NCBI GenBank assembly: GCA_020846875.1
Contig: JADLDB010000059.1
Location: forward strand, 62,001-126,000
Reading direction: 5' to 3'
Source: Myxococcales bacterium
GTDB lineage: Bacteria; Myxococcota; Myxococcia; Myxococcales; Myxococcaceae
DNA: 64,000 nt
The notes beneath the pieces are model-generated. The model was not told the origin of the DNA, did no database searches, and worked only from the letters and a program-made list of their open reading frames with translations. Position numbers and translations under genes: made by a program. This document shows, one piece after another, positions 11,694 through 27,551 of the stretch. The number at the start of each line of letters is the position of its first letter. Position 1 is the stretch's first letter.

Positions 11694-11837
11694 AGCGGCT
11701 TGCCCAAAGGGGGGCTGCCTGCTATGGCGCGCGCTCCCTTCCGGCTCCCTCGGTCGGGTCCATACCGCTGGCGGGCGAGTCCGCCCCGCACCTCCGGCCT
11801 TATCGGCCGCGTGCGAGAGAAGGAAAGTGAGACGAAC
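11694..11837 (+). other. Leader region of rplC, no gene seen
   Basis: This 144-base gap follows the palindromic element and precedes rplC. Its frame can be read as an N-terminal extension of L3, but the encoded residues are arginine- and proline-rich and unlike any L3, so I treat it as untranslated. AGGAAAG about 12 bases before the ATG is the likely ribosome-binding site. No convincing promoter or L3-binding structure was recognised by eye. Confidence 0.5.
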
Positions 11838-12512
11838 ATGAAGGGCCTCATCGGCAAGAAGGTTGGAATGACCCAGGTCTTCACCGCGGAAGGCAACGCG
11901 GTGCCCGTGACCGTGATCGACGTCACCTCCTGTGAGGTGGTCGGCACCCGGACGCAGGAGAAGGATCAGTACACCGCCGTCGTCCTCGGCCTGGTGGACG
12001 CGAAGGACAAGCACCTGACGAAGGCGCAGGCAGGCGCGTTCAAGAAGGCGGGCGCCAAGGCCAAGCGGATCCTCCAGGAGTTCCGCGTCACCGCCGACGA
12101 GCTCGGCGAGTTCAAGGTGGGCGAGGCCGTCAAGGTGGAGATTTTCCAGAAGGGCCAGCTGGTGGACGTGTCCGGCGTCACCAAGGGCCGCGGGTTCCAG
12201 GGCGTGATGAAGCGGTGGAACTTCCGCGGCTTCGGCGACACCCACGGTACGCACGAGTACCGCCGGCACCCCGGCGCGATCGGCCAGCGCAAGACGCCCG
12301 GCCGCGTGTACCCGAACAAGAAGCTGCCCGGGCACTACGGCGTGGAGAAGGTCACCACCCAGAACCTCGAGGTGGTCGAGGTGATCCCCGAGCGCAACCT
12401 GATCCTGGTAAAGGGCGGGGTGGCGGGGCACAACGATGGCGTGGTGATCGTCAAGCCGGCGGTGAAGGTCGCCATGCGCGCGAAGCACAAGGCCGGCGCC
12501 GCGAAGAAGTAA
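11838..12512 (+). CDS. rplC: 50S ribosomal protein L3
   Basis: L3, 224 residues, an early-assembling large-subunit protein near the peptidyl-transferase centre. The start MKGLIGKKVGMTQVF is the conserved family N-terminus, so the upstream in-frame extension is rejected. The internal loop reads RGFQGVMKRWNFRGFGDTHG and then GAIGQRKTPGRV, keeping the glutamine that PrmB methylates in E. coli. The end LILVKGGVAGHNDGVVIVKP is also standard. The gene stands alone here, with an exporter upstream and a lipoprotein downstream. Normally it follows rpsJ and precedes rplD in the S10 operon. It may be a relocated single copy or an extra paralogue. Confidence 0.95.
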   Translation: MKGLIGKKVGMTQVFTAEGNAVPVTVIDVTSCEVVGTRTQEKDQYTAVVLGLVDAKDKHLTKAQAGAFKKAGAKAKRILQEFRVTADELGEFKVGEAVKVEIFQKGQLVDVSGVTKGRGFQGVMKRWNFRGFGDTHGTHEYRRHPGAIGQRKTPGRVYPNKKLPGHYGVEKVTTQNLEVVEVIPERNLILVKGGVAGHNDGVVIVKPAVKVAMRAKHKAGAAKK

Positions 12513-12532
12513 CCAGGGACAGAAGGGTGTCG

Positions 12533-14332
12533 ATGCCGGGCCTCAAGCCGCTCCTCGTCAGCCTGGCCCTCGCGGGCGTGGTGGCGGGGTGCGGCTCGTC
12601 GGGCCCCAAGCCGCTGCCCTTCGGCTCGTCCTGCGTCCCGGGGGACACCGTCTTCGAGTGCGCCTCGGGGCTGTGCGTGGCGCTCGACACGGCGTCGGGC
12701 TTCTGCACCGACGGCTGCACCATCACCGACGACTGCCCCGCCGACTTCGCCTGCGCGGGCGCGGGCCGCTATGGGCGGATCTGCCAGCCCCTCACCGGCT
12801 GCAAGACCGAGACGGACTGCCCCGCCGGCCACGTCTGCAACGCCGAGACGGGCAACTGCTACATCCAGGTGAGCCGCACCCTCTGCTCGCCCTGTCAGGA
12901 TACGGCGCAGTGCCCGGCCGGCGGCGCGTGCTTCGAGGCGTTGGGCTCCGGCGAGAAGTTCTGCACCGCGGCCTGCGGCGCGTCGGACGACTGCCCCACC
13001 GGCTACGACTGCCGGGAAATCCCCGCCGGGGCGATGGGCGCGCTGGTGAAGCAGTGCGTGCCCAGCACCGACACCTGCAGCAACGGGCGCGGCATCTGCA
13101 CGAGCTGCCGGGGCGACGCGGAGTGCGGCGGCCCCTTCGATCTCTGCGTACGCAACGTGGTGTCTGGCGAGCAGTTCTGTGGCCGCGACTGCAACCCGCA
13201 GAAGAACCTCTGCCCCACGCCGGGGTGCGATCCGGTGAAGCTGGACTCGGCGCAGAACCCCGACTGCCCGGCCGGCTTCTCCTGCACCAACCTCGGCAAG
13301 TCCGACGATCCGAACGTGGTGGGGCCCTACCAGTGCGTGCCCAATTCCAACACCTGCGCGGGCTACTGCGACTCGAGCGATGCGCTCGGCCAGGTGTCGC
13401 AGTGCGGGCTGGGCAAGGTGTGCGTGAGCAACGCCTGCGTGCCCGCGGTGGACGGGCGCATGTGCTCGCCGTGCACCGACAACGACGACTGCCGGCGCGG
13501 CGGCTTCTCCGAGAACCGCTGCATCGTCAACAACTGCCCTGACTGCCCGTACAAGGGGGAAGCCTTCTGCTCCACCCCCTGCGCGGACGACGCCGCCTGC
13601 ATCCGCAGCTTCGGGGCGGGCTTCGTCTGCAAGCCGGTGGACGATCCGTCGGGGGTGGAGCGCAGCTACTGCATGCCCCAGCGCGGCACCTGCCAGACGG
13701 GCCTCAAGCGGCTGGGGGAGGACTGCACCGCCAACGGCGCCGCGGACTGCGTGACGGGCACCTGCCTGGTGGCCGGCGTCACCAGCTTCTGCAGCGGCCC
13801 GTGCGCCCAGGACAGCCAGTGCGGCGACGCCCACTACCGCTGCTGCGAGACGGCGGCCCAGGGCGGCTACGACTGCAGCGCGGACAAGCGCAACCCCGAC
13901 GGTCCAAAGTCTGGCATGGGCGTGTGCGCGCCCATCGGCGGGCTGTTCGGCGACGACTGCTCTCCGGGGCTGGCGCCCTGTCAGAGCGGCACCTGCCTCG
14001 ATCTCGGCACCGCGCGGCTGTGCTCGGTGACGTGCGCCGGCGGGGCGGGGTGCCCGTCAGGCTTCACCTGCCGCAAGGCGCAGCTTCCGGATCTGAGCGG
14101 CGAGGCCGACGTGTGCTTCCCCAACGGTGGAGGGACTCCGGGCGCCGACTGCGACTTCGGCCCCGCCGCCTGCCAGAGCGGCCTGTGCATTCGCAAGGAC
14201 TCGGGGCCGATCTGCACCACCCCGTGCATGGCGGACGCGGAATGCCCGGAGAACTGGATCTGTCAGCTCCTGCGCACGGTGAACGAGCAGTCGGTGCAGG
14301 CCTGCCTGCCCCCGGCGCTGCAGGACGGTTAG
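12533..14332 (+). CDS. Large cysteine-rich surface lipoprotein
   Basis: About 599 residues with lipobox LALAGVVAGC, then some 60 cysteines arranged as repeated modules of the type C-x(4-6)-C-P-x-G-x-x-C, for example TDDCPADFACAGAG, ETDCPAGHVCNAETGNC and SDDCPTGYDCREIP. Such modules are common in myxobacterial secreted proteins and should be heavily disulphide-bonded, so an extracytoplasmic surface location is expected. I know of no enzymatic motif in it. The start MPGLKPLL at 12533 lies 20 bases after rplC; an in-frame extension back into rplC is rejected. It lies directly upstream of the vWA lipoprotein and the outer-membrane barrel genes, so an accessory role in that envelope complex is possible but unproven. 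Confidence 0.82.
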   Translation: MPGLKPLLVSLALAGVVAGCGSSGPKPLPFGSSCVPGDTVFECASGLCVALDTASGFCTDGCTITDDCPADFACAGAGRYGRICQPLTGCKTETDCPAGHVCNAETGNCYIQVSRTLCSPCQDTAQCPAGGACFEALGSGEKFCTAACGASDDCPTGYDCREIPAGAMGALVKQCVPSTDTCSNGRGICTSCRGDAECGGPFDLCVRNVVSGEQFCGRDCNPQKNLCPTPGCDPVKLDSAQNPDCPAGFSCTNLGKSDDPNVVGPYQCVPNSNTCAGYCDSSDALGQVSQCGLGKVCVSNACVPAVDGRMCSPCTDNDDCRRGGFSENRCIVNNCPDCPYKGEAFCSTPCADDAACIRSFGAGFVCKPVDDPSGVERSYCMPQRGTCQTGLKRLGEDCTANGAADCVTGTCLVAGVTSFCSGPCAQDSQCGDAHYRCCETAAQGGYDCSADKRNPDGPKSGMGVCAPIGGLFGDDCSPGLAPCQSGTCLDLGTARLCSVTCAGGAGCPSGFTCRKAQLPDLSGEADVCFPNGGGTPGADCDFGPAACQSGLCIRKDSGPICTTPCMADAECPENWICQLLRTVNEQSVQACLPPALQDG

Positions 14333-14411
14333 GGCCCCAGAAAACTCGAAAAAGCCTGTTCAGACCGGTGGTTGAACGTGCTATCTCGCCGCACCCTCAA
14401 GGCGTGATTCG

Positions 14412-15857
14412 ATGAAGCGGGCTCTGCGTGTCACTTGCGTGCTGTGGGTCGCCGCCGTGGCGATGGCCGGGTGCCAGGATCGCACGCGCACCCGCCGCGT
14501 CCTCGAGCCCTTCACCGTGGTGCCCGGCACGCCCACTGTCGACACCAAAGCACCCGAGGTGCAGACGGACGGCACGCAGGAGACGGGTGACTTCGGCGTC
14601 AACGTACCGCGGCAGTGCGACGTCTTCCGGCAGTTGCCGGTGCGGCAGGTGGACATCCTCTGGGTGGTGGACTCGTCGGGCAGCATGGCGCCCAAGCAGG
14701 CGCGGCTGGCGGCCAACTTCCAGGGCTTCATCAACCAGCTGGTCAACGCCAACCCGCCCATCGACTTCCACATCGCGGTGGTGAGCACCGACACCGACGA
14801 CGCCGCGGGCCGCGGGAAGCTCAAGGCCTGGACGATCAGCGGCTTCACCGAGGACTTCATCGCCTGCGCGCCCACCATGCAGGGCAGCGTCACCTGCAAC
14901 ACCGGCCCGGACGTGATGAGCGCGGTGCAGGCCTTCGGGCAGATGTCTCAGGTGGGGATCGCCGGCAGCGCGCAGGAGCGCGGGCTGTACTCGGCGTACC
15001 TGGCGCTCACCAACACGCTCAACAACTCCACCCCCGCGGTGACCCGCTTCGTGCGACCCGAGGCCTCGCTGTACGTGGTCGTGGTGTCCGACGAGGACGA
15101 CTCGTCCTGCACGCCGCTCACCCGACAGGCGGTGTGCACCGCAGATCCCGGCTGCCGCTGCTCGCCCGACACGGCGCTGGCCGGCGCCGGCGCGTGGGGC
15201 TCGACGGAGTACTTCACCCGCTTCCTCGAGACCTTCAAGGGCTACGGCAACGAGGACTCGGTGGCGCTGGCGGCCATCGTCGCCACCAGCGACGACGCGG
15301 GCGTGCCTTCCCAGTTCGGAGATCCCAGCCCCCACGTCGGCTGCTGCCGCTCTCTGTCCGGCACCCCGTGCCCGGCTGGGGGCGCCAACGACGGCGGCTA
15401 CGAGGTGGGCTACTTCGGCGGCCGCTACGTGCAGGTCGCGGCGGCCACCGGCGGGGTGACGGTGTCGATCTGCCAGGACGACTTCTCCCAGGCGCTGGCG
15501 GCGCTGGGCTACGCGGCGTCGGGCCTGCGCCAGGAGTTCCGCTTGAGCCGCGGCCCGGATCTCAAGCCCGACGGGGGCGTGGCCGACGGGCTGGCGGCGT
15601 ACGTGGCGAAGTCCACCGCCGCCAACTGCATGGTGGACGGCAACTGCCCCATGGGCCAGGTGTGCCGGGGGCAGCGCTGCGCGGATCGCGTGGCCGTCAG
15701 CCTCAGTCCGCAGGCTGCGGGCGCCTCCTACGTGCGCTGCGACACCGCCGGCCTGCGCAACATGGTCCGCTTCGATGGGACGGCCGTGCCCGAGCCGCTC
15801 AGCACCATCGAGGTCTGTTACGACGTCCTCGCCAGCTTCCCCACCACCTGTCCTTGA
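14412..15857 (+). CDS. vWA-domain surface lipoprotein
   Basis: A 481-residue lipoprotein (lipobox AAVAMAGC, Cys20) with a von Willebrand factor A domain from about residue 78. The metal-ion-dependent adhesion site is intact as DILWVVDSSGSM. Further conserved parts are FHIAVVSTDTDD and YVVVVSDEDDSSC. Several cysteine pairs (CRCSPD, GCCRSLSGTPC, CMVDGNCPMGQVCRGQRC) suggest disulphide-stabilised surface exposure. The next gene, an outer-membrane barrel, starts 35 bases downstream, so the two are probably co-transcribed. In Myxococcus the vWA lipoprotein CglB is the gliding adhesin that works with the Glt outer-membrane complex. This protein is not obviously its orthologue but could play a similar part. 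Confidence 0.88.
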   Translation: MKRALRVTCVLWVAAVAMAGCQDRTRTRRVLEPFTVVPGTPTVDTKAPEVQTDGTQETGDFGVNVPRQCDVFRQLPVRQVDILWVVDSSGSMAPKQARLAANFQGFINQLVNANPPIDFHIAVVSTDTDDAAGRGKLKAWTISGFTEDFIACAPTMQGSVTCNTGPDVMSAVQAFGQMSQVGIAGSAQERGLYSAYLALTNTLNNSTPAVTRFVRPEASLYVVVVSDEDDSSCTPLTRQAVCTADPGCRCSPDTALAGAGAWGSTEYFTRFLETFKGYGNEDSVALAAIVATSDDAGVPSQFGDPSPHVGCCRSLSGTPCPAGGANDGGYEVGYFGGRYVQVAAATGGVTVSICQDDFSQALAALGYAASGLRQEFRLSRGPDLKPDGGVADGLAAYVAKSTAANCMVDGNCPMGQVCRGQRCADRVAVSLSPQAAGASYVRCDTAGLRNMVRFDGTAVPEPLSTIEVCYDVLASFPTTCP

Positions 15858-15892
15858 AGCCCAGTCCGTCTGCCCGAGGTGCACGCGCTGCC

Positions 15893-16735
15893 ATGAACCG
15901 GAAAACTCTGAAGATCGTCGGCTGTCTCGCGGTGCTTCTCACCGCCGGCAGCGCGTTCGCCGATGAGGGCGAGCTGGTGGAGAAGGTCGCCGTCCGCAAC
16001 CGCCTCTACACGGTGGCCGGACGCTGGGAGGTGGGCGCGAACTTCGGCCTATCGTTGCTGAGTCGCCTGACCGATCACTACAACCTGAATGTCTCAGGGG
16101 CCTACAACTTCACTGACTGGTTGGGACTGGAGCTTCGCGTCGGCTACGCAATCTCGAACTACACGTCGCTCGCTCGACGGGTTCAGGAGGACTTCTACTC
16201 TTCCAACAGTCAGTCGAAGGCGAGCGACCTCTCCGATACCTGGCTGATGAAGTTCAACGCCATCGCCGGCCTCAGATTCCAGCCGATCTACGGCAAGATC
16301 AACGTCATGGCGGAGTTGCCCATCCACTTTCAGCTCTACGGCTGGGTGGGCGGGGGAGCCGCGATGTTCAGCAGGGAGTCCCTCGTGATCTGTCCGGGCG
16401 GGCTGGTGCAGGGAACCGGAGGAGTGAGGCCCATCGCGGCCGCGTGCACGGACTCGTTGTCGTACTACAACGAGGACAACTTCGGCCCGCTTGTGTCGCT
16501 TGCCCTCGGCTTCCGGTTTTTCATCCCCGGCGTCACGTCCTCGGGGACGGTCGTCGGCCAGCGGCACAGCATCAAGCTCGAGGTTCGGGACTGGTCCTTC
16601 CTGGATTCGTACTACGTGAACGTCGACCGCGCGCAATCGAGCCCAAACAACCCCACGGCGGGCGGCATGCAGTCGCCCACCGCCGGCATCACCAACCTGG
16701 TGATGATCGACATTGGCTACGCCTTCCTTTTCTGA
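15893..16735 (+). CDS. Outer-membrane beta-barrel, GltA/GltB (NfsA/NfsB)-like
   Basis: A 280-residue protein with signal peptide (MNRKTLKIVGCLAVLLTAGSAFA) and alternating amphipathic strands ending in the terminal aromatic IDIGYAFLF, the usual BAM-recognition end of a barrel. The strands (RWEVGANFGLSLLSRL, YNFTDWLGLELRVGYAI) fit a small myxobacterial barrel. Its place as the first of two barrels followed by a TPR protein matches gltB-gltA-gltC and nfsA-nfsB-nfsC. GC content of this gene is visibly lower than its neighbours (many AAC, TCG, TTT codons). The ATG at 15893 was chosen because the signal peptide starts there. Confidence 0.82.
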   Translation: MNRKTLKIVGCLAVLLTAGSAFADEGELVEKVAVRNRLYTVAGRWEVGANFGLSLLSRLTDHYNLNVSGAYNFTDWLGLELRVGYAISNYTSLARRVQEDFYSSNSQSKASDLSDTWLMKFNAIAGLRFQPIYGKINVMAELPIHFQLYGWVGGGAAMFSRESLVICPGGLVQGTGGVRPIAAACTDSLSYYNEDNFGPLVSLALGFRFFIPGVTSSGTVVGQRHSIKLEVRDWSFLDSYYVNVDRAQSSPNNPTAGGMQSPTAGITNLVMIDIGYAFLF

Positions 16736-16745
16736 TGACCATCGG

Positions 16746-17837
16746 ATGAACGCCATGCGAACATTGATCCTCGCAGCACTCCTCATGGTCGGTGCCGCCC
16801 AGGCGTCGACGCGTGCCGTGACGCCCGTGGTGATTGCACAGGGCGCCCCGGCAGTTGGGTCGCCCGCACCCGCCAGTGATGACGATGAAGACGAGGAGGG
16901 CCCAGCCAAGCCGAGCCCAGTGGAAGCTCCCAAACCAGAGCCGAAAACAGAGGGCGCAGTAGCGCCGACGGCTTCCTCCAAACCGGGTGACGAGCAGCGC
17001 CTGGTGTCGGGCGCACCCCTCTATAACCCCAACGTCGCGGTCCACATCGTGGAGCAGAAGCAGTTCTCGGACTCGGGCCGGCGTGAGCTGGTGCTCTTCC
17101 CGGTGGCGCTGCAGGTGAATGGCAAATTCACCCAGCACTTCGGCACCTTCGGCAGCTTCGTGTGGCACCTGCAGGAGAACTTCGGCCTTCAGATCACCGG
17201 CGGCTACAACTGGTACAACGCCGAGTCGGGCTTCAACGCCGAGCTGGTCGAGAAGGTTCGCGCCGAAGCCCAGGCCGCCACCTCGCTACTGTGGACCTGG
17301 GGGGTGATGGGCGGCGTGGAGGTGACGCCGCTGTACGCCAAGTTCGCCTTCTTCGAGGGCACCCTGGCCACCTTCTCCATCGTCATCAACGGCGGGGCCG
17401 GCGTCGGCGGCACCCGGCACCAGCTCAAGCCCGAGAGCGTGGCCTCCGACGGGGTGACCGTCAGCCCGGCCACCTACGGGGACACCGGGGCGCGCTTCAT
17501 GGGATCGCTGGGCGCGGGCTTCCGGCTGCAGCTGGGCCAGCGCTTCGCCTTCCGTCTGGAGGTCCGCGACGTCGTCTACACCGCCAAGGTGGACTCGGTG
17601 AACGGCTGCAACTCGATGGATCTGAAGGCCATGGACGACAAGATTCGCGGCGGCCAGCCAATCGAGTCGGCGGTGGTAGGCGGGAGCTGCAACGTGCAGA
17701 GCTTCGCCGGGACCGATCCCGACACCGGCTACAAGCGGAGCAACGACGTGCCGCTGGCGCTCAATCTGGTGCGGCTACCGTCGTCGGACGTCCTCAACAA
17801 CGTCGGCCTGTACATCGGGGCGTCGTTCCTCTTCTAA
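16746..17837 (+). CDS. Outer-membrane beta-barrel, GltA/GltB (NfsA/NfsB)-like
   Basis: A 363-residue protein with signal peptide (MRTLILAALLMVGAAQA), a Pro/Glu/Lys-rich acidic linker (DDDEDEEGPAKPSP) and a C-terminal barrel ending VGLYIGASFLF. Strands such as VWHLQENFGLQITGGYNWY and FRLQLGQRFAFRLEVRDVVY parallel those of the preceding barrel, so the pair is probably a tandem duplication that diverged. The acidic linker could cross the periplasm or bind partner proteins. The start at 16746 lies 10 bases after the previous stop; an upstream start would overlap that gene and precede the signal peptide. The next gene begins immediately after the stop. Confidence 0.82.
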   Translation: MNAMRTLILAALLMVGAAQASTRAVTPVVIAQGAPAVGSPAPASDDDEDEEGPAKPSPVEAPKPEPKTEGAVAPTASSKPGDEQRLVSGAPLYNPNVAVHIVEQKQFSDSGRRELVLFPVALQVNGKFTQHFGTFGSFVWHLQENFGLQITGGYNWYNAESGFNAELVEKVRAEAQAATSLLWTWGVMGGVEVTPLYAKFAFFEGTLATFSIVINGGAGVGGTRHQLKPESVASDGVTVSPATYGDTGARFMGSLGAGFRLQLGQRFAFRLEVRDVVYTAKVDSVNGCNSMDLKAMDDKIRGGQPIESAVVGGSCNVQSFAGTDPDTGYKRSNDVPLALNLVRLPSSDVLNNVGLYIGASFLF

Positions 17838-19385
17838 GTGAGTGAGAAGGCCATGATCCGCACGCTCGTCCTCAGCCTCGCCCTCGCCGCTTCCAGCGCC
17901 TTCGCGCAGGACCTGGCGAACTACAACAAGGGCCTCTCGGCCTACAACGCCAACGACTTCGGGGAGGCGGCGCGCCTCTTCTACGAGGTCACCAACACCA
18001 CCACCGACAATGATCTGCGCAACAAGGCCGAGTACTACCTGGCCTCCAGCTTCCAGCGGGCCAACCTGCCGTTCACCGCCTTCATCTACTTCACGCCGAT
18101 CGTGAAGCAGGGGCCGTCGCACCCGTACCACGCCAAGAGCGTGGAGGCGTTCATCGCCCTGCAGGAGACGCTCAACGACGACTACCTGATCCCGTCGATC
18201 CTCAACAACCTGTACGACAAGTACGCGGATACCTGGGCCACCCTGCCGCTGGAGGTCCTGGCGAGGATCAACTACCTCATCGGGCGCATCTCGCACCGCA
18301 AGGCGCTGCTGGAGGACGCCAAGCAGTTCCTCGAGGCGGTGCCCGACACCAGCCAGTTCTACGCGCGCGCGCAGTACCTGCTGGGCATCACCCTGGCCGA
18401 TCCCCGCTACCCAGCCGCCAGCGACGAGGTCCGCAAGGCCAACCTGGACGCGGCGCGGGTGATCTTCGAGAACGTGCTCAAGGTGAAGACCAAGCAGTTG
18501 GACTTCGCCGACACCCAGCACCTGGCGATGCTGGCCCTGGGCCGCACCAACTACAACGTGGGCGAGTACCAGAAGGCGGTCGACTGGTACGAGAAGATCC
18601 CCCGCTTCTCCAAGTACTGGGATCAGGCGCTCTTCGAGAACGGCTTCGCCCGCTTCCAGAATGACGATCTGGGCGGCGGCCTGGGATCGCTGCAGGGCCT
18701 CTACGCCCCGCAGTTCGCCGGCGCCTTCCAGCCCGAGTCGTGGATCCTCACCAGCACCATCTATTACTTCTCGTGCCTGTACGAAGAGTCCAAGGCCGCG
18801 CTGGTGGAGTACGAGAACCTCTACCTGCCGATGGCCGAGAAGCTGAAGCCCCTGGTGGAGGGCGAGTCGAGGGATCCGGCCAGCTACTTCCAGTTGGTCG
18901 AGCGGACGGAGAGCCAGGAGCTGCCGAAGGCGGTGCTCAACTGGGTGCGCTCCAACGAGCGCATGCTGGGCCTGTTCGGCATGCTCCACCAGATCGAGGT
19001 GGAGAAGGGCCTCATCGATCAGAACCAGGGGTGGAAGGCGGCCAAGCTGGCCAACGAGCTCGTCACGTACCTCGATCAGAACAAGGCGATGCTGGAGCAG
19101 GTCGCCGGCACCGTGTCCAGGGCCCGCCTCGTGGAGGCCTACCGGACCATCAAGGGCTTCGCGGATCAGGCCGAGATCATCCGCTTCGAGGTGGCCAAGG
19201 CCGAGAAGGAGCTGGCCGAGCAGAACGTCGACGCGGCGGGCGTGCTGAAGAAGCAGACCCTCTACCGCCCGAAGATGCCCGCGGAGAACTGGAATTACTG
19301 GAAGTTCCAGGGCGAGTTCTGGCGCGACGAGATCGGCTACTACCAGTACACCTTGAAGCGCGGCTGCCCGACGTCCTCGAACTGA
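17838..19385 (+). CDS. gltC: Periplasmic TPR protein, GltC/NfsC-like
   Basis: A 515-residue secreted protein (signal MIRTLVLSLALAASSAFA after a short N-tail) built of helical hairpins. Several read as tetratricopeptide repeats, for example YNKGLSAYNANDFGEAARLFYEV, AEYYLASSFQRANLPFTAFIYF and LGRTNYNVGEYQKAVDWYEKI (shortened here to key parts: N-K-G-L, A-E-Y-Y-L and N-V-G-E-Y). Position after two barrels and before two more TPR proteins matches gltC/nfsC, a periplasmic bridge in the gliding or spore-coat machinery. It starts on the base after the preceding stop. A strong intrinsic terminator follows 90 bases downstream, so this gene may end the first transcription unit. Confidence 0.78.
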   Translation: MSEKAMIRTLVLSLALAASSAFAQDLANYNKGLSAYNANDFGEAARLFYEVTNTTTDNDLRNKAEYYLASSFQRANLPFTAFIYFTPIVKQGPSHPYHAKSVEAFIALQETLNDDYLIPSILNNLYDKYADTWATLPLEVLARINYLIGRISHRKALLEDAKQFLEAVPDTSQFYARAQYLLGITLADPRYPAASDEVRKANLDAARVIFENVLKVKTKQLDFADTQHLAMLALGRTNYNVGEYQKAVDWYEKIPRFSKYWDQALFENGFARFQNDDLGGGLGSLQGLYAPQFAGAFQPESWILTSTIYYFSCLYEESKAALVEYENLYLPMAEKLKPLVEGESRDPASYFQLVERTESQELPKAVLNWVRSNERMLGLFGMLHQIEVEKGLIDQNQGWKAAKLANELVTYLDQNKAMLEQVAGTVSRARLVEAYRTIKGFADQAEIIRFEVAKAEKELAEQNVDAAGVLKKQTLYRPKMPAENWNYWKFQGEFWRDEIGYYQYTLKRGCPTSSN

Positions 19386-19475
19386 CCGGACGGGCCGGGT
19401 GTTGAAACCCACGAGCCCTCGAAAGCACTGGAAAAAGATGGCCCCCGCTGCGATCAGGGGGTCCCTTCCTTCATC

Positions 19476-19507
19476 CGGACCCGTGTTGTAGGGTCCGCGC
19501 GTTTTTT
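19476..19507 (+). terminator. Intrinsic terminator between gltC-like and gltD-like genes
   Basis: A perfect 7-bp stem CGGACCC / GGGTCCG with an 8-base loop, followed by CGCG and six consecutive T residues (19502-19507). This is the classic rho-independent form. It ends only 21 bases before the ATG of the next gene, so it may separate the cluster into two units or act as an attenuator for the downstream genes. Confidence 0.8.
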
Positions 19508-19527
19508 GTCCCACAGGAGCATTCAAG

Positions 19528-22500
19528 ATGACGCTGGCCCGAATCCTCTGCGCGCTGCCGTTGGTGTTGTCGCTGGTGGCCTTCGATGCATCGGCCCAGG
19601 GAAAGAAGGGCAGCAAGGCCCCGGCGAAGGCCGATCCGAAGGCCGCGAAGGCCGATCCCAAGGCCGCGGCGAAGAAGCCGGAGGAGCGCAAGGGCCCCGC
19701 CAAGCTGGACGCACGCAGCGGGGCGCCTCCCGCCGAGGCGGACGTGGAGCGCGAGGCGATCGCCGACAAGAAGCGCGACGATCAGATCGAGGCAGCGAAG
19801 AAGATCATCCCGAAGATCGAGGACGGCAACCCGCAGAAGGCCGACCTGCTCTTCCAGTTGTCCGAGCTGTACTGGGAGAAGTCGCGCTACCTGTACCGCA
19901 AGGAGATGCTGGGCTTCTTCAAGGCGCAGAAGGAAGCCGACGAGAAGAAGAACCGCGGCGAGAAGGTGGCCGAGCCCAAAGAAGAGCACCGCGAGTCCGA
20001 GCTCTACCGCTCGGAGACGATGCGCCTGTACGAGACGATCCTGCGCGAGTACCCCGCGTACGATCGCAAGGACGAGGTGCTCTTCAACCTCGCCTACAAC
20101 CTCTACGAGACGGGCAAGCGCGACGCGGCGGTGAAGCGCTACGAGGAGCTGCTCAAGGGCTACCCGGGCTCGAAGTTCGTCCCCGACACCTACGTGCAGC
20201 TCGGCAACCACTACTTCGAGGTGGCCAACGTCCTCGAGAAGGCGAAGACGTATTACGAGAAGGCGTTCGCCTCGAACAACCCGAAGATCAAGTCCTACGC
20301 GCTGTACAAGCTGGCCTGGTGTGACTTCAACGCCGGCGAGCACGAGAAGGCGCTCAAGAAGCTGCAGCAGACGGTGGAGTTCGCGGAGAAGCAGGGCAAG
20401 GACCGCGCCTTCACCGACCTGAAGAACGAAGCGCTGAACGACTCGATCCGCATGTTCACCGAGCTCAACCGGGCGGACGACGCGATCGCCTATTACACGG
20501 CGCACGCGGGCAAGAAGAAGAAGATCACCCTGATCGGCAAGCTGGCCTACGCGCTCCAGGACGCGGGCCACCACGACAACTCGATCAAGTCCTTCCGCTA
20601 CCTGCTCAACGACAACCCGCTGGCCGAGTCGGCGCCCGACTTCCAGCAGGCGATCATCAAGTCCTACGAGGGCATGCGGCAGCGCGAGAACGTGAAGGCC
20701 GAGGTGAAGAAGCTGGCCAAGCTGTACCGGCCGGGCTCCGAGTGGTGGAAGGCCAACGAGTCGAAGAAGGAAGTGCTGCGCAACGGCTTCAACGTCGCCG
20801 AGGAGGCGATGCGCACCACCGTCACCGAGTACCACCAGGAAGCGCAGAAGACCAAGCAGGTGGAGACGTACCGGCTGGCCCGCGACATCTACAAGGAGTA
20901 CGTGGACGGCTTCGCCACGTCCGACGACGAGGCCTTCGTCGCCGATCAGGCCTTCAACCTGAAGTTCTACTACGCCGAGATCCTCTGGGCGCTCGAGGAG
21001 TGGGAGCCCGCCGCGAAGCAGTACGACGGGGTGGTGGGCTTCAAGGTCCCCAACCGGCCCGAGGCGAAGGAGGCCTCCAACGAGAAGTACCGCCAGACGG
21101 CCGCGTACAACTCGATCCTCGCCTACGAGAAGCTGGTGAAGATCGAGCGCGGCGTGCTGCAGAAGTCGGAGCTCAAGGAAGGCGGCAAGGTCGAGGAGAC
21201 CAAGAAGAAGGGCTCGGTCGAGAAGCAGCAGAAGGTGACCAAGCGCTCGACCAAGGAGCTGGAAGAGAAGCCGCTCACCGACTTCGAGAAGCAGCTGGTC
21301 GCCGCCTGCGACAAGTACAACCAGATGTTCCCGAAGAACCCGGACGAGGTCGACGTGGCCTACCAGGCCGCGGTCATCTTCTACGACAAGAACCACTTCG
21401 TGGACGCGGCTCGCCGCTTCGGTGACATCGTGAACAAGTACCCGGAGGAGAAGCGGTCCACCGAGGCCGCCGACCTCTCCATGGCCGTCCTCGAGGAGAA
21501 GGAGGAGTGGCTGGAGCTGAACATCCTCGCGCGGCAGTTCAAGGCCAACGCCAAGCTGACCAAGCCCGGCACCGAGTTCGCCAAGCGCGTGGGCGGGATC
21601 GTCGAGGGCAGCCAGTACAAGTACATCGACGAGGTCGTCTACAAGAAGGAGAAGGATCCCAAGAAGGCGTCGCGCCTCTTCCTTGCCTTCGTCGAGGAGT
21701 TCCCCAAGTCGGAGAACGCCGATCGCGCGCTCACCTACTCGATGATCATCGCCCGCGAGGCCTACGAGCTGGACAAGGCCGCGCAGATCGGTGAGCGGCT
21801 GCTCAAGGAGTACCCGCAGTCGGTCTTCGACCTCAAGGTGAAGGCCTCGCTGGCCTACCTGTACGAGAAGATGGCCAACTTCGAGAAGTCCGCGAACATG
21901 TACGAGGAGTTCGTCGCCACCTACGACCTGGCCGCGGGTGAGAAGGGCGTCGGCTACGCCAACGTCAAGGATCTGCTCAGGAAGGAGGCCGAGGAGCGGG
22001 CCAAGGCCGCCAAGACGGCGAAGAAGGATCCCAAGGCCTCGGCGCCGGCGGTGATCTCCACCGTGGAGATGAAGAAGCTCACCGCGGACAAGCAGAAGGA
22101 GCGCGAGGCGCAGATCAAGGAGGCCGGCGAGCTGGTGGCCGACGCGCAGTACAACACCGGCTTCTGGTACGAGGGCGTGGGTCAGTTCGACAAGGCGATC
22201 GCCGCGTACAACCGCTACATCGCCCGCTTCAAGGACAAGAAGGACGTCCCCGACATCGCCTTCAACATCGGGTTGGTGCTGGAGAAGCAGAACAAGTACC
22301 TGGACGCGATCAAGTACTTCGATCAGTACCAGACGACGTACGCCAAGGACGCGCGGGTCGCGGACACCCGGCGCTTCGATCTGAAGTACCGGCAGTTCCT
22401 CTTGAACGGGAAGCTGAAGAACGCCGCCGAGCAGGATCGCCTGGCGAAGGACCTCACCGGCGCCTGGGCCAAGCTCAAGGAAGAGGAGAAGAAGAACGAC

Positions 22501-23163
22501 CGGGTGAAGCTGGCCTACGCCCACACGAAGTTCTATCTGCTCGAGCCGCAGTGGAACGCCTACCTGGCGCAGAAGTTCGACTACAAGAACTTCAACCGCT
22601 CGGCGATCGTCCAGTTCTCGAAGACGGACCGCCCGAAGAAGGAGAAGGCGCTGGCGGAGATCGAGAAGGTCTACACCGAGGTGCTGGGGATCGGGAACGC
22701 GGAGTACGGCATCGCGGCGCTGACCCGCATCGGCATGGCCTACGGTGACTTCGCCTCCAACATCGCCGGCATCCCCGATCCGGTGGGCTTCGACGAGGAT
22801 CAGACGGCCATGTTCCGCGGCGAACTCGAGAACCGCTACGTCTTCCCGGTCGAGGAGAAGGCGGTGGAGGCCTTCGACAAGGCGCTGGCCAAGTCCTACG
22901 AGCTGTCCGTCTACAACGAGTGGACGCTGCAGGCGCAGGACAAGCTGAACAAGTACAAGCCGGGCTTCTACGGCAAGCCGCGCGACGTCGCGTACCGGGG
23001 CGCCGAGTTCTTCGCCACCAGCGGCTTCGAGAAGGGCGTGCAGCTCCCGTCCGAGGTGGCCGCCGAGAAGCCCGCGGCGCCGCCCGACGCGCCTCCCGCC
23101 GGAGGCGCCACCAAGCCGCCGGAGTCGGCCGCGGCCCCCACTCCTGGCGCGGGGGCCCGCTAA
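19528..23163 (+). CDS. gltD: Large periplasmic TPR protein, GltD/NfsD-like
   Basis: A 1211-residue exported protein: signal peptide (LVLSLVAFDASAQ), a Lys/Ala/Pro-rich stretch to about residue 70, then a long helical array with many TPR-like hairpins (LFQLSELYWEKSRYLY, FNLAYNLYETGKRDAAVKRY, VQLGNHYFEVANVLEKAKTY). A charged coiled segment lies near 830-870. The C-terminus is proline/alanine rich. Size, TPR content and its place between the gltC-like and lipoprotein gltE-like genes match GltD (AgnA)/NfsD, thought to span part of the periplasm. ATG preceded by AGGAG. The stop overlaps a possible upstream start of the next gene (TAATG). Very lysine-rich, unlike its neighbours. Confidence 0.78.
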   Translation: MTLARILCALPLVLSLVAFDASAQGKKGSKAPAKADPKAAKADPKAAAKKPEERKGPAKLDARSGAPPAEADVEREAIADKKRDDQIEAAKKIIPKIEDGNPQKADLLFQLSELYWEKSRYLYRKEMLGFFKAQKEADEKKNRGEKVAEPKEEHRESELYRSETMRLYETILREYPAYDRKDEVLFNLAYNLYETGKRDAAVKRYEELLKGYPGSKFVPDTYVQLGNHYFEVANVLEKAKTYYEKAFASNNPKIKSYALYKLAWCDFNAGEHEKALKKLQQTVEFAEKQGKDRAFTDLKNEALNDSIRMFTELNRADDAIAYYTAHAGKKKKITLIGKLAYALQDAGHHDNSIKSFRYLLNDNPLAESAPDFQQAIIKSYEGMRQRENVKAEVKKLAKLYRPGSEWWKANESKKEVLRNGFNVAEEAMRTTVTEYHQEAQKTKQVETYRLARDIYKEYVDGFATSDDEAFVADQAFNLKFYYAEILWALEEWEPAAKQYDGVVGFKVPNRPEAKEASNEKYRQTAAYNSILAYEKLVKIERGVLQKSELKEGGKVEETKKKGSVEKQQKVTKRSTKELEEKPLTDFEKQLVAACDKYNQMFPKNPDEVDVAYQAAVIFYDKNHFVDAARRFGDIVNKYPEEKRSTEAADLSMAVLEEKEEWLELNILARQFKANAKLTKPGTEFAKRVGGIVEGSQYKYIDEVVYKKEKDPKKASRLFLAFVEEFPKSENADRALTYSMIIAREAYELDKAAQIGERLLKEYPQSVFDLKVKASLAYLYEKMANFEKSANMYEEFVATYDLAAGEKGVGYANVKDLLRKEAEERAKAAKTAKKDPKASAPAVISTVEMKKLTADKQKEREAQIKEAGELVADAQYNTGFWYEGVGQFDKAIAAYNRYIARFKDKKDVPDIAFNIGLVLEKQNKYLDAIKYFDQYQTTYAKDARVADTRRFDLKYRQFLLNGKLKNAAEQDRLAKDLTGAWAKLKEEEKKNDRVKLAYAHTKFYLLEPQWNAYLAQKFDYKNFNRSAIVQFSKTDRPKKEKALAEIEKVYTEVLGIGNAEYGIAALTRIGMAYGDFASNIAGIPDPVGFDEDQTAMFRGELENRYVFPVEEKAVEAFDKALAKSYELSVYNEWTLQAQDKLNKYKPGFYGKPRDVAYRGAEFFATSGFEKGVQLPSEVAAEKPAAPPDAPPAGGATKPPESAAAPTPGAGAR

Positions 23164-23192
23164 TGAGCCCCTCTCGAATCAAGGGAACGAGC

Positions 23193-24503
23193 ATGAAGTC
23201 CTTGCGCATCGCCGGGCTGTCCGTCGCCGCCGCCCTGTCCGCCTGCACCACGGTGCAGGAGGAGGTGAAGAAGGATCCGGTGCTCACCGCGCCGGTGAAG
23301 GCGAAGGAGAAGACGACGCAGGAGCTCTTCCAGGACGGCGTGGCGGCCTTCGACGCGGGCAAGTACGACGTGGCGAAGACGGCGTTCACGGCGGTGTCGA
23401 AGAAGGCGCCCCAGAGCGTCGGGCTGCAGTTCAACCTGGGCCTGGTCGCCGAGAAGCAGGGCCAACTGGCCGAGGCCGTGGGGTACTACGAGGCGGCCCA
23501 CAAGCTCGATCCGAAGCACAAGCCCACGCTGCTCAACCTGGGCCGCGCCTACCGCCTGCAGGATCGCTTCGACGACGCGATCGCCCTGTACGAGGCGGCG
23601 CTCAAGGATCCCGCCAACGAGTACGACGTCGAGCTCAACAACAACCTCGCCGTCGCCTACCGGCTGTCGAAGAAGTACGCCGAGGCCGAGGCCGCCGCCC
23701 GCAAGGTGCTGGCCCGCACCAAGGACAACCCCGACGCGTACAAGAACCTGGCGCTCATCTACTTCGACCAGGGGAACTTCCGGCTGGCCGAGTTCATCAG
23801 CGCCAACGCGAGGAAGCTCGATGACAAGGATCCCGGCGTCTACAACAACCTGGGGCTCATCTACCTGAAGATCGACGATCGCCGGACCGCGCTGGGCCAG
23901 TTCCAGAAGGCCGTCGAATTGAACAAGAACTTCGCGCCCGGGCTCTTCAACATCGGCGCGATGGCCCTGAGCTACCGCGACTACGAGGGCGCCGAGAAGG
24001 TGCTGGGCCGGGCCACCGAGCTCGATCCGACCTCCTACGAGGGCTTCCTCGCCTACGCCTGGGCGCTCGACGGCCAGAAGGGCCGGGATCCGAAGAAGGG
24101 CCTCAAGGCCGGCGAGACCTTCGAGCGCGTCCTGGCGATCAAGCCGGAGCAGCCCGACGCCATCTGCGGCGCCGCCTGGGCCTACGCGGCCGACAAGGGC
24201 GGCTGGGAGAGGGCGCTCAAGTTCTTCGAGACCTGCAAGGGCCTCAAGTCCACCACCGCGCAGGATCAGCAGCTGATCGACAACAAGGTGAAGGGCATCC
24301 TGGCCATGCAGAAGCAGCCGGCCGCCGCCCCGCAGCCCAAGCCGGAAGACAAGCCCAAGCCGGCCGCGGCCCCCGCCGGCGGCCCGTCGCTCCTCGACAA
24401 GGTGACCGACGACGCCGCCAAGGAGGAAGCCGCCCAGCCGCCCCCCGCCGGCGGTACCCCTCCGGCCCCGGCTCCGGCCCCCGCACCGCCCCCCGCGAAG
24501 TGA
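23193..24503 (+). CDS. gltE: TPR lipoprotein, GltE/AglT/NfsE-like
   Basis: A 436-residue lipoprotein with lipobox (SVAAALSAC, Cys18) and about eight tetratricopeptide repeats from residue 45 to 370, such as LQFNLGLVAEKQGQLAEAVG and VYNNLGLIYLKIDDRRTALG, then a Pro/Ala/Lys-rich tail. In Myxococcus AglT (GltE) is a TPR lipoprotein required for adventurous gliding, and NfsE is its spore-coat counterpart. Gene order here agrees with either. I prefer the ATG at 23193, preceded by AAGGGA and starting a normal lipoprotein signal, over the ATG at 23163 that overlaps the previous stop. Probably co-transcribed with the gltD-like gene. Confidence 0.82.
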   Translation: MKSLRIAGLSVAAALSACTTVQEEVKKDPVLTAPVKAKEKTTQELFQDGVAAFDAGKYDVAKTAFTAVSKKAPQSVGLQFNLGLVAEKQGQLAEAVGYYEAAHKLDPKHKPTLLNLGRAYRLQDRFDDAIALYEAALKDPANEYDVELNNNLAVAYRLSKKYAEAEAAARKVLARTKDNPDAYKNLALIYFDQGNFRLAEFISANARKLDDKDPGVYNNLGLIYLKIDDRRTALGQFQKAVELNKNFAPGLFNIGAMALSYRDYEGAEKVLGRATELDPTSYEGFLAYAWALDGQKGRDPKKGLKAGETFERVLAIKPEQPDAICGAAWAYAADKGGWERALKFFETCKGLKSTTAQDQQLIDNKVKGILAMQKQPAAAPQPKPEDKPKPAAAPAGGPSLLDKVTDDAAKEEAAQPPPAGGTPPAPAPAPAPPPAK

Positions 24504-24554
24504 GAGGGGCGTTGGCACAATGCGTCATGCCGCCCGAGCACCGCTGGGGTAGGG

Positions 24555-24583
24555 ATGACAACGACCTGCGGAATCCCTAGTAT
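24555..24583 (+). promoter_or_regulatory. Probable sigma-70-type promoter for the gltF-gltG pair
   Basis: ATGACA (24555-24560) and TAGTAT (24578-24583) are separated by exactly 17 bases, close to the housekeeping consensus at five and four positions. The predicted transcript would start near 24590, about 55 bases before the small gene's ATG, which has GGAGG upstream. It lies just after the gltE-like gene. Confidence 0.6.
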
Positions 24584-24645
24584 CCGCCGACTTTTCGGAA
24601 CCCCGCCATGCGACCCGGTGTCGGATGGCTCACGGAGGTAAGGAC

Positions 24646-24909
24646 ATGAAGCGCACGTTCGCTCTGCTGGCCCTGGTGGCCCTCGTCGCCGTCCCTGCGA
24701 TGGCCGAGGACAAGGTGATCAAGGAAGCCGACAAGACGGTCTTCCGCAAGAAGACGGTCATCGACTTCACCGACGTGGCCGTCGAAGGTGAGCTCACCAA
24801 GCCCGAAGGCAGCTACTCGGTGTCGAAGAAGAAGACGACGTTCAAGACGCTGATCAAGGTGCGCGACAACTTCAACCCCGAGCTGCAGAAGTCGGTCGAC
24901 AACCTGTAA
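24646..24909 (+). CDS. gltF: Small periplasmic protein, GltF/NfsF position
   Basis: An 87-residue secreted protein: signal peptide MKRTFALLALVALVAVPAMA, then a compact charged domain (VIDFTDVAVEGELTKPEGSY and FNPELQKSVDNL). The C-terminal half resembles short proteins I associate with FHA/TonB-like gliding genes in myxobacteria, where it lies just before gltG. I cannot give a biochemical role, and the name rests on gene order. ATG preceded by GGAGGTAAGG. It is followed 57 bases later by the FHA protein gene and preceded by a good promoter. Confidence 0.6.
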   Translation: MKRTFALLALVALVAVPAMAEDKVIKEADKTVFRKKTVIDFTDVAVEGELTKPEGSYSVSKKKTTFKTLIKVRDNFNPELQKSVDNL

Positions 24910-24966
24910 GCGCAGCGCCGGTTTCCGTCGTACCGCTTCACGTCTCGTGCATCACGAGGTTCCCAC

Positions 24967-26799
24967 ATGAAGAAGACGCCCATCACCCTGCAGATCACCA
25001 GCCCCGACGGCCAGGTGAGCGAGTCCACCAGCGAGCTTGAGAGCATCATCGTCGGCTCCGGCGCGGGCGCCGCGGTCAAGGTGGCCGATCCCAAGGTGTC
25101 CAACCTCCACTGCATGCTCAAGGTGGAGAAGGACGGCAACGTCACGGTCATCGACCTTGGCTCCGAGAGCGGCACCAAGGTGAAGGAGCAGTCGGTCAAG
25201 GATCCCACCATCGTCGCGTCCGGTGACGTGATCCTGATCGGCGAGTCCAAGGTGAAGGTCGTCTTCGGCAACGGCCACGCCAGGCTCGAGGAGAAGGGTG
25301 AGGCGAAGGCCGAGTCTTCCACCGAGAAGAAGAAGGACAAGGTCGTGCCCACGCCCCCCAAGGCGCTGGCCGGCACCGGGAAGAACGCCGCGGTGCTGTT
25401 CAACGAGCCGCTCCCCGCCGAGGCGATCCCCACCGAGACCGAGAAGGTGCTCCAGGTCGCGCTCCTCTGGGGCGACACCCTGATCAGCGTGCAGCACTTC
25501 GCCGACGGCGTGCCGGTCACCATCGGCGACGGCAGGGGGAACAAGTTCAACGTCTTCTCCCCCGGCGTGGGCGTCAGCTTCACTCTGGCGCAGGCGCGGG
25601 GCTCGACGGCGATCGTCAACGTGCCTTCCGTGGCCGGGTTGGTCGTCACCACCAAGTCGGACAGCCACAAGTCGAAGGAGCAGCTCAAGGGCGAAGGCAA
25701 GCTGCGCGCCGCCGAGGGCGGGGTGCGGGCCGACGCGGTGGAGCTGGCGCTGCACGATCGCGCGCAGATCAGCCTCGACAACGTCGCCTTCATCGTCCGC
25801 TACGTGCGTCCCTCCTCGGCGATCACGATGAACACGCTGCAGGAGCACGACTTCACCTTCTTCAAGATCACCTCGATCTGCCTGATGGCCTTCTTCGCCC
25901 TGGTGGCGGCGATGATCATCACCCCGCTCACCGGCGGCGGCGAGGGCGACGACATCTTCGCCAACCCGTCCAAGTACGTGAAGATGGTGGTCAAGCCGGA
26001 GAAGAAGCAGGAGATCAAGAAGTTCAAGGATCTCTCTGGCATCGCCGAGGGCGCCAAGGCCAAGGAGAAGGAAGGGAAGTTCGGCAAGCAGGACAAGGAC
26101 AAGAAGGAAGCCGACCCGTCGAAGAAGGGCGCGCCCGTCGTCGACGCCAACAAGCGCGAAGAGGACCGCAAGAAGGTGTCCAGCCTGATGGCCGGCATGT
26201 TCGGCGGAGGCGCGGCGTCCAACGTCTTCGGCCCCGGCGGGCTGGGCACCGGCATCAACAATGCGCTCGGCGGCCTGCAGGGCGGCGCGGGCGTGGGTGA
26301 CGCCCAGGGCGTAGGCGGGCTCGGGTCCCGCGGCTCCGGCGCCGGTGGTGGCGGCACGGGCCTGGGCCTCGGCGGGCTGGGCACCAAGGGCGGCGGGCGC
26401 GGCGCGGGCGGCTACGGCTCCATCGATCTCGGTGGCCGCGGCAAGGACTCGACGCGCGTCATCCCCGGCAAGACGACCGTGGTGGGCGGCCTGGACAAGG
26501 ACGTGATCATGAAGGTGATCAAGCGCCACCAGAACGAGATCAAGTTCTGCTACGAGCAGGAGCTGCAGAAGGATCCCAAGCTGGGCGGTAAGGTGGCCGT
26601 CGCGTGGACCATCGATCCCTCGGGCGGCGTGTCCGAGGCCAACGTGTCCGAGTCGTCGATCGGCAACGCCAACGTCGAGTCCTGCATCGTGCAGCGCATC
26701 CGGCGGTGGAAGTTCCCCGAGCCGGCTGGCGGAGGCATCGTCAACGTCACCTTCCCGTGGATCTTCAAGGCCGCGGGCGACGACAGCGCCGACGAGTAG
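24967..26799 (+). CDS. gltG: FHA domain plus TonB-like (AgmX/PglI C-terminal) protein, GltG/NfsG-like
   Basis: A 610-residue inner-membrane protein. The cytoplasmic N-terminus has a forkhead-associated fold (IIVGSGAGAAVKVADPKVSN, with LGSESGTKV at its end), though the canonical phosphothreonine-binding Arg and Ser are not clear. A second FHA-like stretch ends near 280. One membrane helix spans about 298-320 (ITSICLMAFFALVAAMIITP). A charged and then glycine-rich periplasmic linker leads to a TonB-C/AgmX-type domain at 506-605 (IKRHQNEIKFCYEQEL, SCIVQRIRRWKFPEP). This layout is that of GltG/NfsG, which links cytoplasmic and motor parts to the periplasmic complex. No AglRQS motor genes are in the window. 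Confidence 0.85.
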   Translation: MKKTPITLQITSPDGQVSESTSELESIIVGSGAGAAVKVADPKVSNLHCMLKVEKDGNVTVIDLGSESGTKVKEQSVKDPTIVASGDVILIGESKVKVVFGNGHARLEEKGEAKAESSTEKKKDKVVPTPPKALAGTGKNAAVLFNEPLPAEAIPTETEKVLQVALLWGDTLISVQHFADGVPVTIGDGRGNKFNVFSPGVGVSFTLAQARGSTAIVNVPSVAGLVVTTKSDSHKSKEQLKGEGKLRAAEGGVRADAVELALHDRAQISLDNVAFIVRYVRPSSAITMNTLQEHDFTFFKITSICLMAFFALVAAMIITPLTGGGEGDDIFANPSKYVKMVVKPEKKQEIKKFKDLSGIAEGAKAKEKEGKFGKQDKDKKEADPSKKGAPVVDANKREEDRKKVSSLMAGMFGGGAASNVFGPGGLGTGINNALGGLQGGAGVGDAQGVGGLGSRGSGAGGGGTGLGLGGLGTKGGGRGAGGYGSIDLGGRGKDSTRVIPGKTTVVGGLDKDVIMKVIKRHQNEIKFCYEQELQKDPKLGGKVAVAWTIDPSGGVSEANVSESSIGNANVESCIVQRIRRWKFPEPAGGGIVNVTFPWIFKAAGDDSADE

Positions 26800-26818
26800 G
26801 CGCCTTCACCTGAAGCAG

Positions 26819-26850
26819 CGGCGCGGGTGGCTCTCGAGGCCTCCGCGCCG
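26819..26850 (+). terminator. Stem-loop after the gltG-like gene
   Basis: CGGCGCGG pairs with CCGCGCCG (8 bp) around a 16-base loop that can itself fold. Only a TTT run follows (26856-26858), so it is a weak intrinsic terminator or an mRNA 3'-end structure. It precedes a promoter-like sequence for the next gene. Confidence 0.4.
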
Positions 26851-26904
26851 CTCGTGTTTCTGGCCTTCGCGCGATTTTTTCCGGCAGGCGCCTCGCTTTT
26901 CACC

Positions 26905-26932
26905 TTGCGCGACAGGTGCGGGCGGGTATGGT
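26905..26932 (+). promoter_or_regulatory. Possible promoter of the gltH-like gene
   Basis: TTGCGC (26905-26910) and TATGGT (26927-26932) are spaced by 16 bases, a reasonable sigma-70 arrangement for a high-GC deltaproteobacterium. The gene's GTG, with GGGAGGATTC before it, lies 26 bases downstream. Confidence 0.45.
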
Positions 26933-26957
26933 GCCGCGCCCGAAGTAGGGAGGATTC

Positions 26958-27551
26958 GTGCGGAAATTCGCCACGTTGCTGATCGCGCTGCTGCTCTCCA
27001 CCACCGCCGTCGCGGCGACCCCGTCGGAAGGTGTACCGCTCAAGGTCCGCCGCGGCTTCTTCACCGAAACCGACATCGGCGGGATCCTCACGGTCGGCGG
27101 CGACGACGGCTACTCCAACCTGCAGGTCTACCTGCAGCTTGGCCTCGGCTACCAGTTCGCCCTGAAGGAAGGGATGGGGATCATCCCGGTCGGCTTCCAC
27201 GTGGGCATCGGCGCCAACGCGGCGAACTGCCACGCGGGGAAGACGAACGGCGGCGTGTGCAACTCGTCGGACAACTTCACGATGACCTTCCTGTCCGTCT
27301 CCGCGGGCTACCTGCACCGCGTGGTGGAGCGGCTGTACCTGGGCGGGAAGATCATCGGCGGCTACACGCTGCTCGATCCCGAGCCGGTGGCGGGGGTGAA
27401 CGGCGGCGTCAATATCGGCGTGGCGGCCAGCCTGGAGTACGCCACCAACATGGATCACTTCTCCGTCGGCGTGGACGTGTCGTACCGGATCATCATCGGC
27501 CCGAACATCAACGTCCTCGCGTTCTTCCCGCGCGTTCAATACACGTTCTGA
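26958..27551 (+). CDS. gltH: Small outer-membrane beta-barrel, GltH/NfsH-like
   Basis: A 197-residue protein with a signal peptide (LLIALLLSTTAVAA) and about eight amphipathic strands ending in a terminal phenylalanine (FFPRVQYTF), typical of a small outer-membrane barrel. Strands include LQVYLQLGLGYQFAL and FLSVSAGYLHRVVERLYLGG. One cysteine pair (CHAGKTNGGVC) could form a surface-loop disulphide. It follows the gltG-like gene as gltH/nfsH do in Myxococcus. GTG start with GGGAGG Shine-Dalgarno. Probably transcribed from its own promoter. Family fit by position is stronger than by sequence. Confidence 0.72.
   Translation: MRKFATLLIALLLSTTAVAATPSEGVPLKVRRGFFTETDIGGILTVGGDDGYSNLQVYLQLGLGYQFALKEGMGIIPVGFHVGIGANAANCHAGKTNGGVCNSSDNFTMTFLSVSAGYLHRVVERLYLGGKIIGGYTLLDPEPVAGVNGGVNIGVAASLEYATNMDHFSVGVDVSYRIIIGPNINVLAFFPRVQYTF

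Follow-up and report, generated by a model that had tools for sequence, protein, structure and literature searches.

The vWA/MIDAS lipoprotein gene at 14412..15857 (+ strand) of the window, by which we mean the whole stretch of 64,000 nucleotides of Myxococcales DNA that was analyzed, is the second gene of a two-lipoprotein cassette that lies between rplC and the first outer-membrane barrel gene of an nfs-type cluster. Judged from its conservation in related bacteria, a functional unit of vWA lipoprotein and barrel is well supported. We consider it probable that the vWA protein is a dedicated surface ligand-binding subunit which, together with the cysteine-rich lipoprotein encoded upstream, forms the outermost module of the Agl-powered Nfs machine.

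The gene starts with ATG and codes for a protein of 481 aa with 20 cysteines. Its N-terminus carries the lipobox MAGC, the cysteine of which (C21) is invariant in all 23 aligned cluster homologues, and the MIDAS motif DSSGS occupies residues 87–91. Serines S89 and S91 are invariant in 23/23 aligned homologues, D87 is kept in 22 and the downstream aspartate D227 in 21 of them; the MIDAS is incomplete in the homologues L059 (D87 to Q, D227 to S) and L064 (D227 to A). The stop codon ends at 15857 and the start codon of the barrel gene follows at 15893, leaving 35 bp. The original prediction of a vWA lipoprotein 35 bases before the first barrel gene, with an intact MIDAS, is thus confirmed. No Pfam family scored above its gathering score with this protein (VWA_2, E 0.086), and we therefore base the assignment as vWA protein on the motif, the predicted fold and profile comparison. 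Among PDB sequences the vWA profile matched none. The AlphaFold2 model (mean pLDDT 79, pTM 0.75) found integrin beta headpieces as its best PDB matches with Foldseek (E 2e-8). When aligned with VIA-align, the model superimposes on the integrin alpha2 I-domain with Z 15.0 and 3.0 Å over 185 residues and on the integrin beta headpieces with Z 13.4 over ~255 residues at an rmsd near 7 Å. The vWA fold of the product can be considered safe at the level of the predicted model, and the resemblance of the flanking beta regions to the integrin hybrid domain is suggestive.

Downstream of the vWA gene the window displays, from 15893 to 27551 and on the + strand throughout, the gene order and the size series of nfsA to nfsH. 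Two outer-membrane beta-barrels come first, the nfsA orthologue (15893..16735, 280 aa, TIGR04565 99 bits, assigned by order, size and synteny with nfs) and the nfsB orthologue (16755..17837, 360 aa, TIGR04565 62 bits); the cut-off of this NCBIfam model, OMP_myx_plus, is 60 bits. They are followed by a GltC-like TPR protein, orthologous to NfsC according to its scores and the tree (17853..19385, 510 aa), a TPR protein orthologous to NfsD (19528..23163, 1211 aa, published NfsD 1202 aa) and a TPR lipoprotein orthologous to NfsE (23190..24503, 437–447 aa with an uncertain start, NF033758 GltE 104 bits). The orthologues of nfsF (24646..24909, 87 aa, published 94 aa) and nfsH (26958..27551, 197 aa, published 200 aa), both coding for small exported proteins, were assigned by position and size, and between them lies the gene of an FHA/TonB-tail protein orthologous to NfsG (24967..26799, 610 aa, NF033760 GltG 322 bits, myxo_SS_tail 121 bits). 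For M. xanthus NfsA–H sizes of 294, 442, 512, 1202, 499, 94, 682 and 200 aa have been reported (PMC2875238). The orthologous cluster in genome G136 (locus L178) is identical to the published M. xanthus cluster in the lengths of NfsA, B, C, D, F and H and equals it also in the gaps (B–C 23, C–D 214 and G–H 152 bp), and from these lengths and gaps G136 would appear to be an M. xanthus-like genome. As this orthologous cluster reproduces the published values, we assign the window cluster to nfs. Taken together, gene order, sizes, spacing, the conserved upstream rplC and the NfsC tree show that 15893–27551 is the nfsA–H locus.

The original prediction drew on the Glt outer-membrane proteins that hold CglB in Myxococcus. 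An assignment of the present cluster as glt was ruled out by the GltC scores together with a separate copy elsewhere in the genome: the GltC-like protein of the window reaches only 224–226 bits with NF033756, below the GltC equivalog cut-off of 450 bits, whereas about 950 bits are obtained for another GltC copy of the same genome, which adjoins two barrels on contig C150. By these scores the real GltC and gltBAC of the source genome are on contig C150, and the barrels next to the vWA gene are NfsA and NfsB. A vWA homologue was not found on the 24-kb contig C150. The source genome has three further GltC-like genes (contigs C62, C109 and C150), and GltC-like genes are equally numerous in G077 and G121, both of which are Myxococcus-like.

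The gap between nfsC and nfsD contains a terminator-like hairpin (19476..19497, + strand) of 7 pairs followed by six T. Similar hairpins were seen in this gap in 10/21 homologous loci with a loose test run without a control. It has been reported that RT-PCR across nfsC–nfsD failed in M. xanthus, perhaps through secondary structure, and the M. xanthus glt genes are split at the point equivalent to the nfsC–nfsD junction. Directly after nfsH we find a dehydrogenase gene that scores above the cut-off for L-erythro-3,5-diaminohexanoate dehydrogenase, an enzyme of lysine fermentation (27565–28638, 235 bits, cut-off 200), and at 30788–33221 there are genes for a degradative-type HMG-CoA reductase and mevalonate kinase.

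The first gene of the cassette (12533..14332, + strand) codes for a lipoprotein of 599 aa with the lipobox VAGC and as many as 77 cysteines. At E 0.1 it had no match among the families of Pfam and NCBIfam. Across 22 homologues 72 cysteine columns are invariant. The AlphaFold2 model of this protein has a pLDDT of 77 and a pTM of 0.54, and a Foldseek search with it gave nothing below E 0.001. Upstream lies the gene of ribosomal protein L3, rplC (11838..12512, + strand), which served us as syntenic anchor on the upstream side of either the cassette or nfsA and which is separated from the next open reading frame by 20 bp; in the window rplC stands alone, without rplD downstream. Of 70 loci searched with tblastn, 52 gave L3 upstream of the cluster, irrespective of whether the cassette is present. 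The slot between rplC and nfsA is therefore fixed.

We fetched 36 loci by means of vWA matches; 29 show the vWA gene directly followed by the first barrel gene, three end inside the vWA gene and four are weak and unlinked matches. With the window included, the vWA gene adjoins the nfsA barrel gene in 30/30 judgeable strong-match loci, and the cysteine-rich gene precedes the vWA gene in 31/31 loci. The gap between vWA gene and barrel gene has a median of 19 bp (n=29) and measures 5–35 bp in 21 and 60–227 bp in 8 of these loci. Because the order recurs without exception, the adjacency is above chance. A further 40 Nfs-type clusters were fetched by means of GltC matches, three of which were unjudgeable; both lipoprotein genes are missing in 36 of the 40 and the vWA gene is present in one. 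In L172 and L173, which are loci of close relatives, rplC and nfsA stand side by side and the cassette is missing, and in L197 and L198 an open reading frame on the opposite strand occupies the slot. Weaker vWA homologues (L071–L074 and the paralogues L082–L091 of the same genome) do not adjoin barrels. Among 195 genomes of the phylum, 43 contain a vWA match at E 1e-20, and ~32 of these were judged to be of the nfs-linked kind. The original prediction had taken genetic linkage as direct evidence for a vWA–barrel unit. The linkage is indeed tight and conserved over seven family-level groups in a Glt-type cluster, but 'direct evidence' is too strong, since linkage speaks for a functional unit and not directly for binding.

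To map the distribution of the cassette we used a 68-row NfsC tree, a quick maximum likelihood tree with several long branches. L173 and L201 were scored as absent, because rplC abuts nfsA there, and L174, L177 and L199 were left out as unjudgeable. Within the class, we find the cassette in the families f1, f2, f5, f7, f8, f9 and f10 but not in f4, f6 or crown Myxococcaceae, and each of the 12 judged rows from other classes lacks it. In every tree row that could be read on both sides the two genes are present or absent together. The fewest changes that explain this pattern are seven, and a single gain would require six losses, including one that precedes the 16 crown Myxococcaceae rows with Myxococcus and its fruiting relatives. 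In family f3, a true GltC is encoded by all five genomes, none of which gave an Nfs-like match at 200–265 bits. In a set of 99 vWA rows the nfs-linked ones form one clade (18/18, support 100) apart from the 81 others. Pairwise distances of the vWA protein and the cysteine-rich protein correlate with 0.96, and with 0.85 after removal of the L3 signal (n=14); between the vWA protein and the Nfs parts the correlation is 0.50–0.77 with the L3 signal removed (n=14), NfsB being the weakest with 0.50. These values are consistent with co-inheritance; relatedness inflates such correlations. A Myxococcota-type vWA gene is also carried by a contig titled Klebsiella pneumoniae MAG (L139), which is probably mislabelled or a mixed bin.

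A comparable arrangement exists in a second phylum. Two contigs titled Bdellovibrionaceae and Bdellovibrionales contain a vWA lipoprotein gene beside Glt-like genes, and in an hhalign comparison the nfs-vWA family aligns with the Bdellovibrio vWA lipoprotein over 289 columns, covering the vWA and C-terminal part, with a probability of 99.8. We searched 66 Bdellovibrionaceae genomes and obtained a vWA match at E 1e-35 in 64. From these 64 we read 20 neighbourhoods, picked by score and long contigs, and in 20/20 the genes for the vWA MIDAS lipoprotein, TolQ, TolR, TolR, GltD, GltF, GltG, barrel and GltC follow one another on one strand. A small gene lies between vWA and TolQ in 19 of the 20; it matched no family and the label PilZ-like is a guess. 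This gene order fits the published Bd1473–Bd1483 'tonB/agl' operon of Bdellovibrio (PMC2797640), and the MIDAS lipoprotein heading the Agl–Glt operon is probably Bd1483. In an insertion mutant study Bd1481 is named aglR and Bd1483 is listed as a 'putative protein in gliding motility cluster', and biofilm predation was reduced to a similar extent in both mutants, by 36.2% and 38.4% (PMC2277423). Bd1483 has been described as a protein with a lipobox and an L-shaped MIDAS architecture which was present in the surface secretome (PMC11003981). The window protein has the same architecture with a lipobox, a DxSxS motif and a vWA domain flanked by N- and C-terminal beta segments; with the equivalog NF052240 MIDASAdhsBdello it scores 50 bits and does not reach the cut-off of 700. 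The cysteine-rich lipoprotein was not found in the two Bdellovibrio-type loci searched (L166 and L167). A sister relationship of the nfs-linked and the Bdellovibrio vWA clades is not supported, and vWA coupling may therefore have arisen twice. On a Bdellovibrionales contig three tandem MIDAS lipoprotein genes follow the barrel and GltC genes (L167:6875–11005).

For the comparison with CglB we take this protein to be 416 aa long and to be encoded at about 3.565 Mb in G136. At this position G136 encodes a 416-aa vWA lipoprotein with the motif DTSGS, which is probably CglB; the identification is only probable, because length and expected position are our assumption. In G136 the nfs-vWA profile misses this protein at E 1, hhalign aligns it with the nfs-vWA family over 18 columns with a probability of 23%, and BLASTP gives E 0.11 over 12 residues. 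By sequence comparison the vWA protein and CglB are not orthologues, and the likeness that had been proposed was not borne out beyond the vWA motif. Another family of ~418-aa vWA lipoproteins (L241, L240, L237 and L082), matched in 106/195 genomes of the phylum, was ruled out as CglB because in G136 it maps to 4.84 Mb, which does not fit.

How could the cassette proteins work? In M. xanthus Nfs is reported to be a paralogue of Glt which is driven by AglRQS and winds polysaccharide round the spore, and contact of AglR with NfsG as well as surface transport by Nfs have been described (PMC3858216). For AglR, an orthologue is present in the source genome (54% to G121:8.156 Mb). In the reading that we favor, both lipoproteins would reach the surface of the outer membrane, where the NfsA/NfsB barrels and NfsC would hold them, and NfsD–H would span the periplasm and couple this platform to the AglRQS motor, which is driven by protons. 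Via the MIDAS metal the vWA domain would grip a ligand, be it the substrate, a surface polysaccharide or another cell, and the machine would then either drag the gripped ligand along the cell surface or move the cell against it. CglB is reported to be a vWA lipoprotein held by Glt barrels and to co-purify with Glt outer-membrane parts (PMC12288465); barrels of this type are thus able to hold a vWA lipoprotein. For the core machine the cassette is dispensable, because M. xanthus Nfs acts in sporulation without both genes. The cysteine-rich protein may act alone, or as chaperone or sheath.

A different role would follow if both lipoproteins were structural parts of a coat or envelope which are deposited by NfsA/NfsB, with the vWA domain binding coat polysaccharide and not acting as an adhesin on the outside. 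The cluster is orthologous to nfs with its proven role in coat assembly, and disulfide-rich proteins would suit a coat. However, the cassette is missing exactly in crown Myxococcaceae, coat-making Myxococcus among them, and the spacing hints at expression in growing cells: the distance from rplC to the cysteine-rich gene is 3–111 bp in 22/25 cassette loci (median 43 bp, the others being 195, 204 and 2509 bp), leaving little room for a promoter. We therefore consider a role as coat component unlikely. In all 12 cassette-less loci measured the gap between rplC and nfsA amounts to 198–443 bp, and the developmental promoter of M. xanthus is reported to lie within 323 bp upstream of nfsA. The loss of the cassette thus fits a switch from rplC-coupled to developmental expression, as far as can be read from spacing, although a longer gap would also be expected as the scar of a deletion. 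A scan of 11700–20000 for sigma-70-like promoters found none; such a scan is uninformative for a GC-rich organism.

The vWA protein could also be the gliding adhesin of its carrier, standing in for CglB and serving Glt though being encoded with nfs. Glt and Nfs barrels are paralogous and CglB itself is held by the former, but the source genome has a separate gltBAC with no vWA gene on its contig, and the vWA family keeps to the slot and tracks the NfsC tree, which makes this role quite improbable. Least convincing, and in our opinion very improbable, is a periplasm-facing lipoprotein pair that aids barrel insertion with the vWA domain as a protein–protein module, as has been described for M. 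xanthus CglC (gltK), encoded just upstream of gltB, which faces the periplasm and aids GltB/GltA insertion (PMC4488436), since CglC has 170 aa and no known domains, unlike the disulfide-rich cassette proteins of 481 and 599 aa, and the Bdellovibrio counterpart was in the surface secretome (PMC11003981).

Returning to the surface ligand-binding subunit, a lipoprotein gene of the gripping type at the head of nfs suggests that the machine was formerly equipped with a grip of its own, which some lineages have retained. Luciano et al. (2011; PMC3169522) did not decide which of the two roles of Glt/Nfs, gliding or sporulation, is the later one, and a MIDAS lipoprotein conserved at the head of nfs among relatives of Myxococcus speaks for an ability to grip which the fruiting lineages have lost. 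Tentatively, and with more doubt than confidence, we propose that the ancestral Nfs was an adhesin-bearing transport or motility machine of growing cells, co-expressed with rplC, that it turned into a coat-winder when deletion removed the grip and room for a promoter arose, and that a vWA grip on barrels is a recurrent solution for Agl machines in two phyla. If this is true, the deletion of the cassette and the promoter-sized gap upstream of nfsA predate the diversification of the fruiting Myxococcaceae. The vWA lipoproteins tied to Glt or Nfs are of at least three sequence kinds, the nfs-linked kind, the Bdellovibrio-linked kind and CglB, and vWA coupling may thus have arisen more than once. 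Bd1483, belonging to a tractable predator, offers a direct test case. A search of the open-access literature, with the main CglB paper lying outside its range, returned no report linking vWA genes to nfs, or CglB to the Bdellovibrio MIDAS proteins, so that provisionally we regard the vWA–nfs linkage as new.

Compared with known systems, the closest counterpart of the cluster is M. xanthus Nfs. The two clusters are orthologous and alike in the order A–H, the protein sizes, the spacing and the upstream rplC, but Myxococcus-like genomes, unlike the window, lack both lipoprotein genes between rplC and nfsA. With integrin I domains and beta headpieces the vWA protein has the vWA fold and the MIDAS in common and the flanking beta regions fit partly; this likeness is one of fold only, the sequence identity being low. 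CglB and Glt of M. xanthus are similar in that a vWA lipoprotein with a DxSxS motif is tied to paralogous outer-membrane barrels, yet the CglB gene is unlinked to glt, the protein has no significant full-length similarity to the window protein and it belongs to another machine. In Bdellovibrio, with the operon Bd1473–Bd1483 and the MIDAS proteins Bd1483 and Bd0875, the vWA lipoproteins form a separate clade and the cluster includes TolQ/TolR motor genes, but a MIDAS lipoprotein heads a Glt-type cluster there just as it does in the window.
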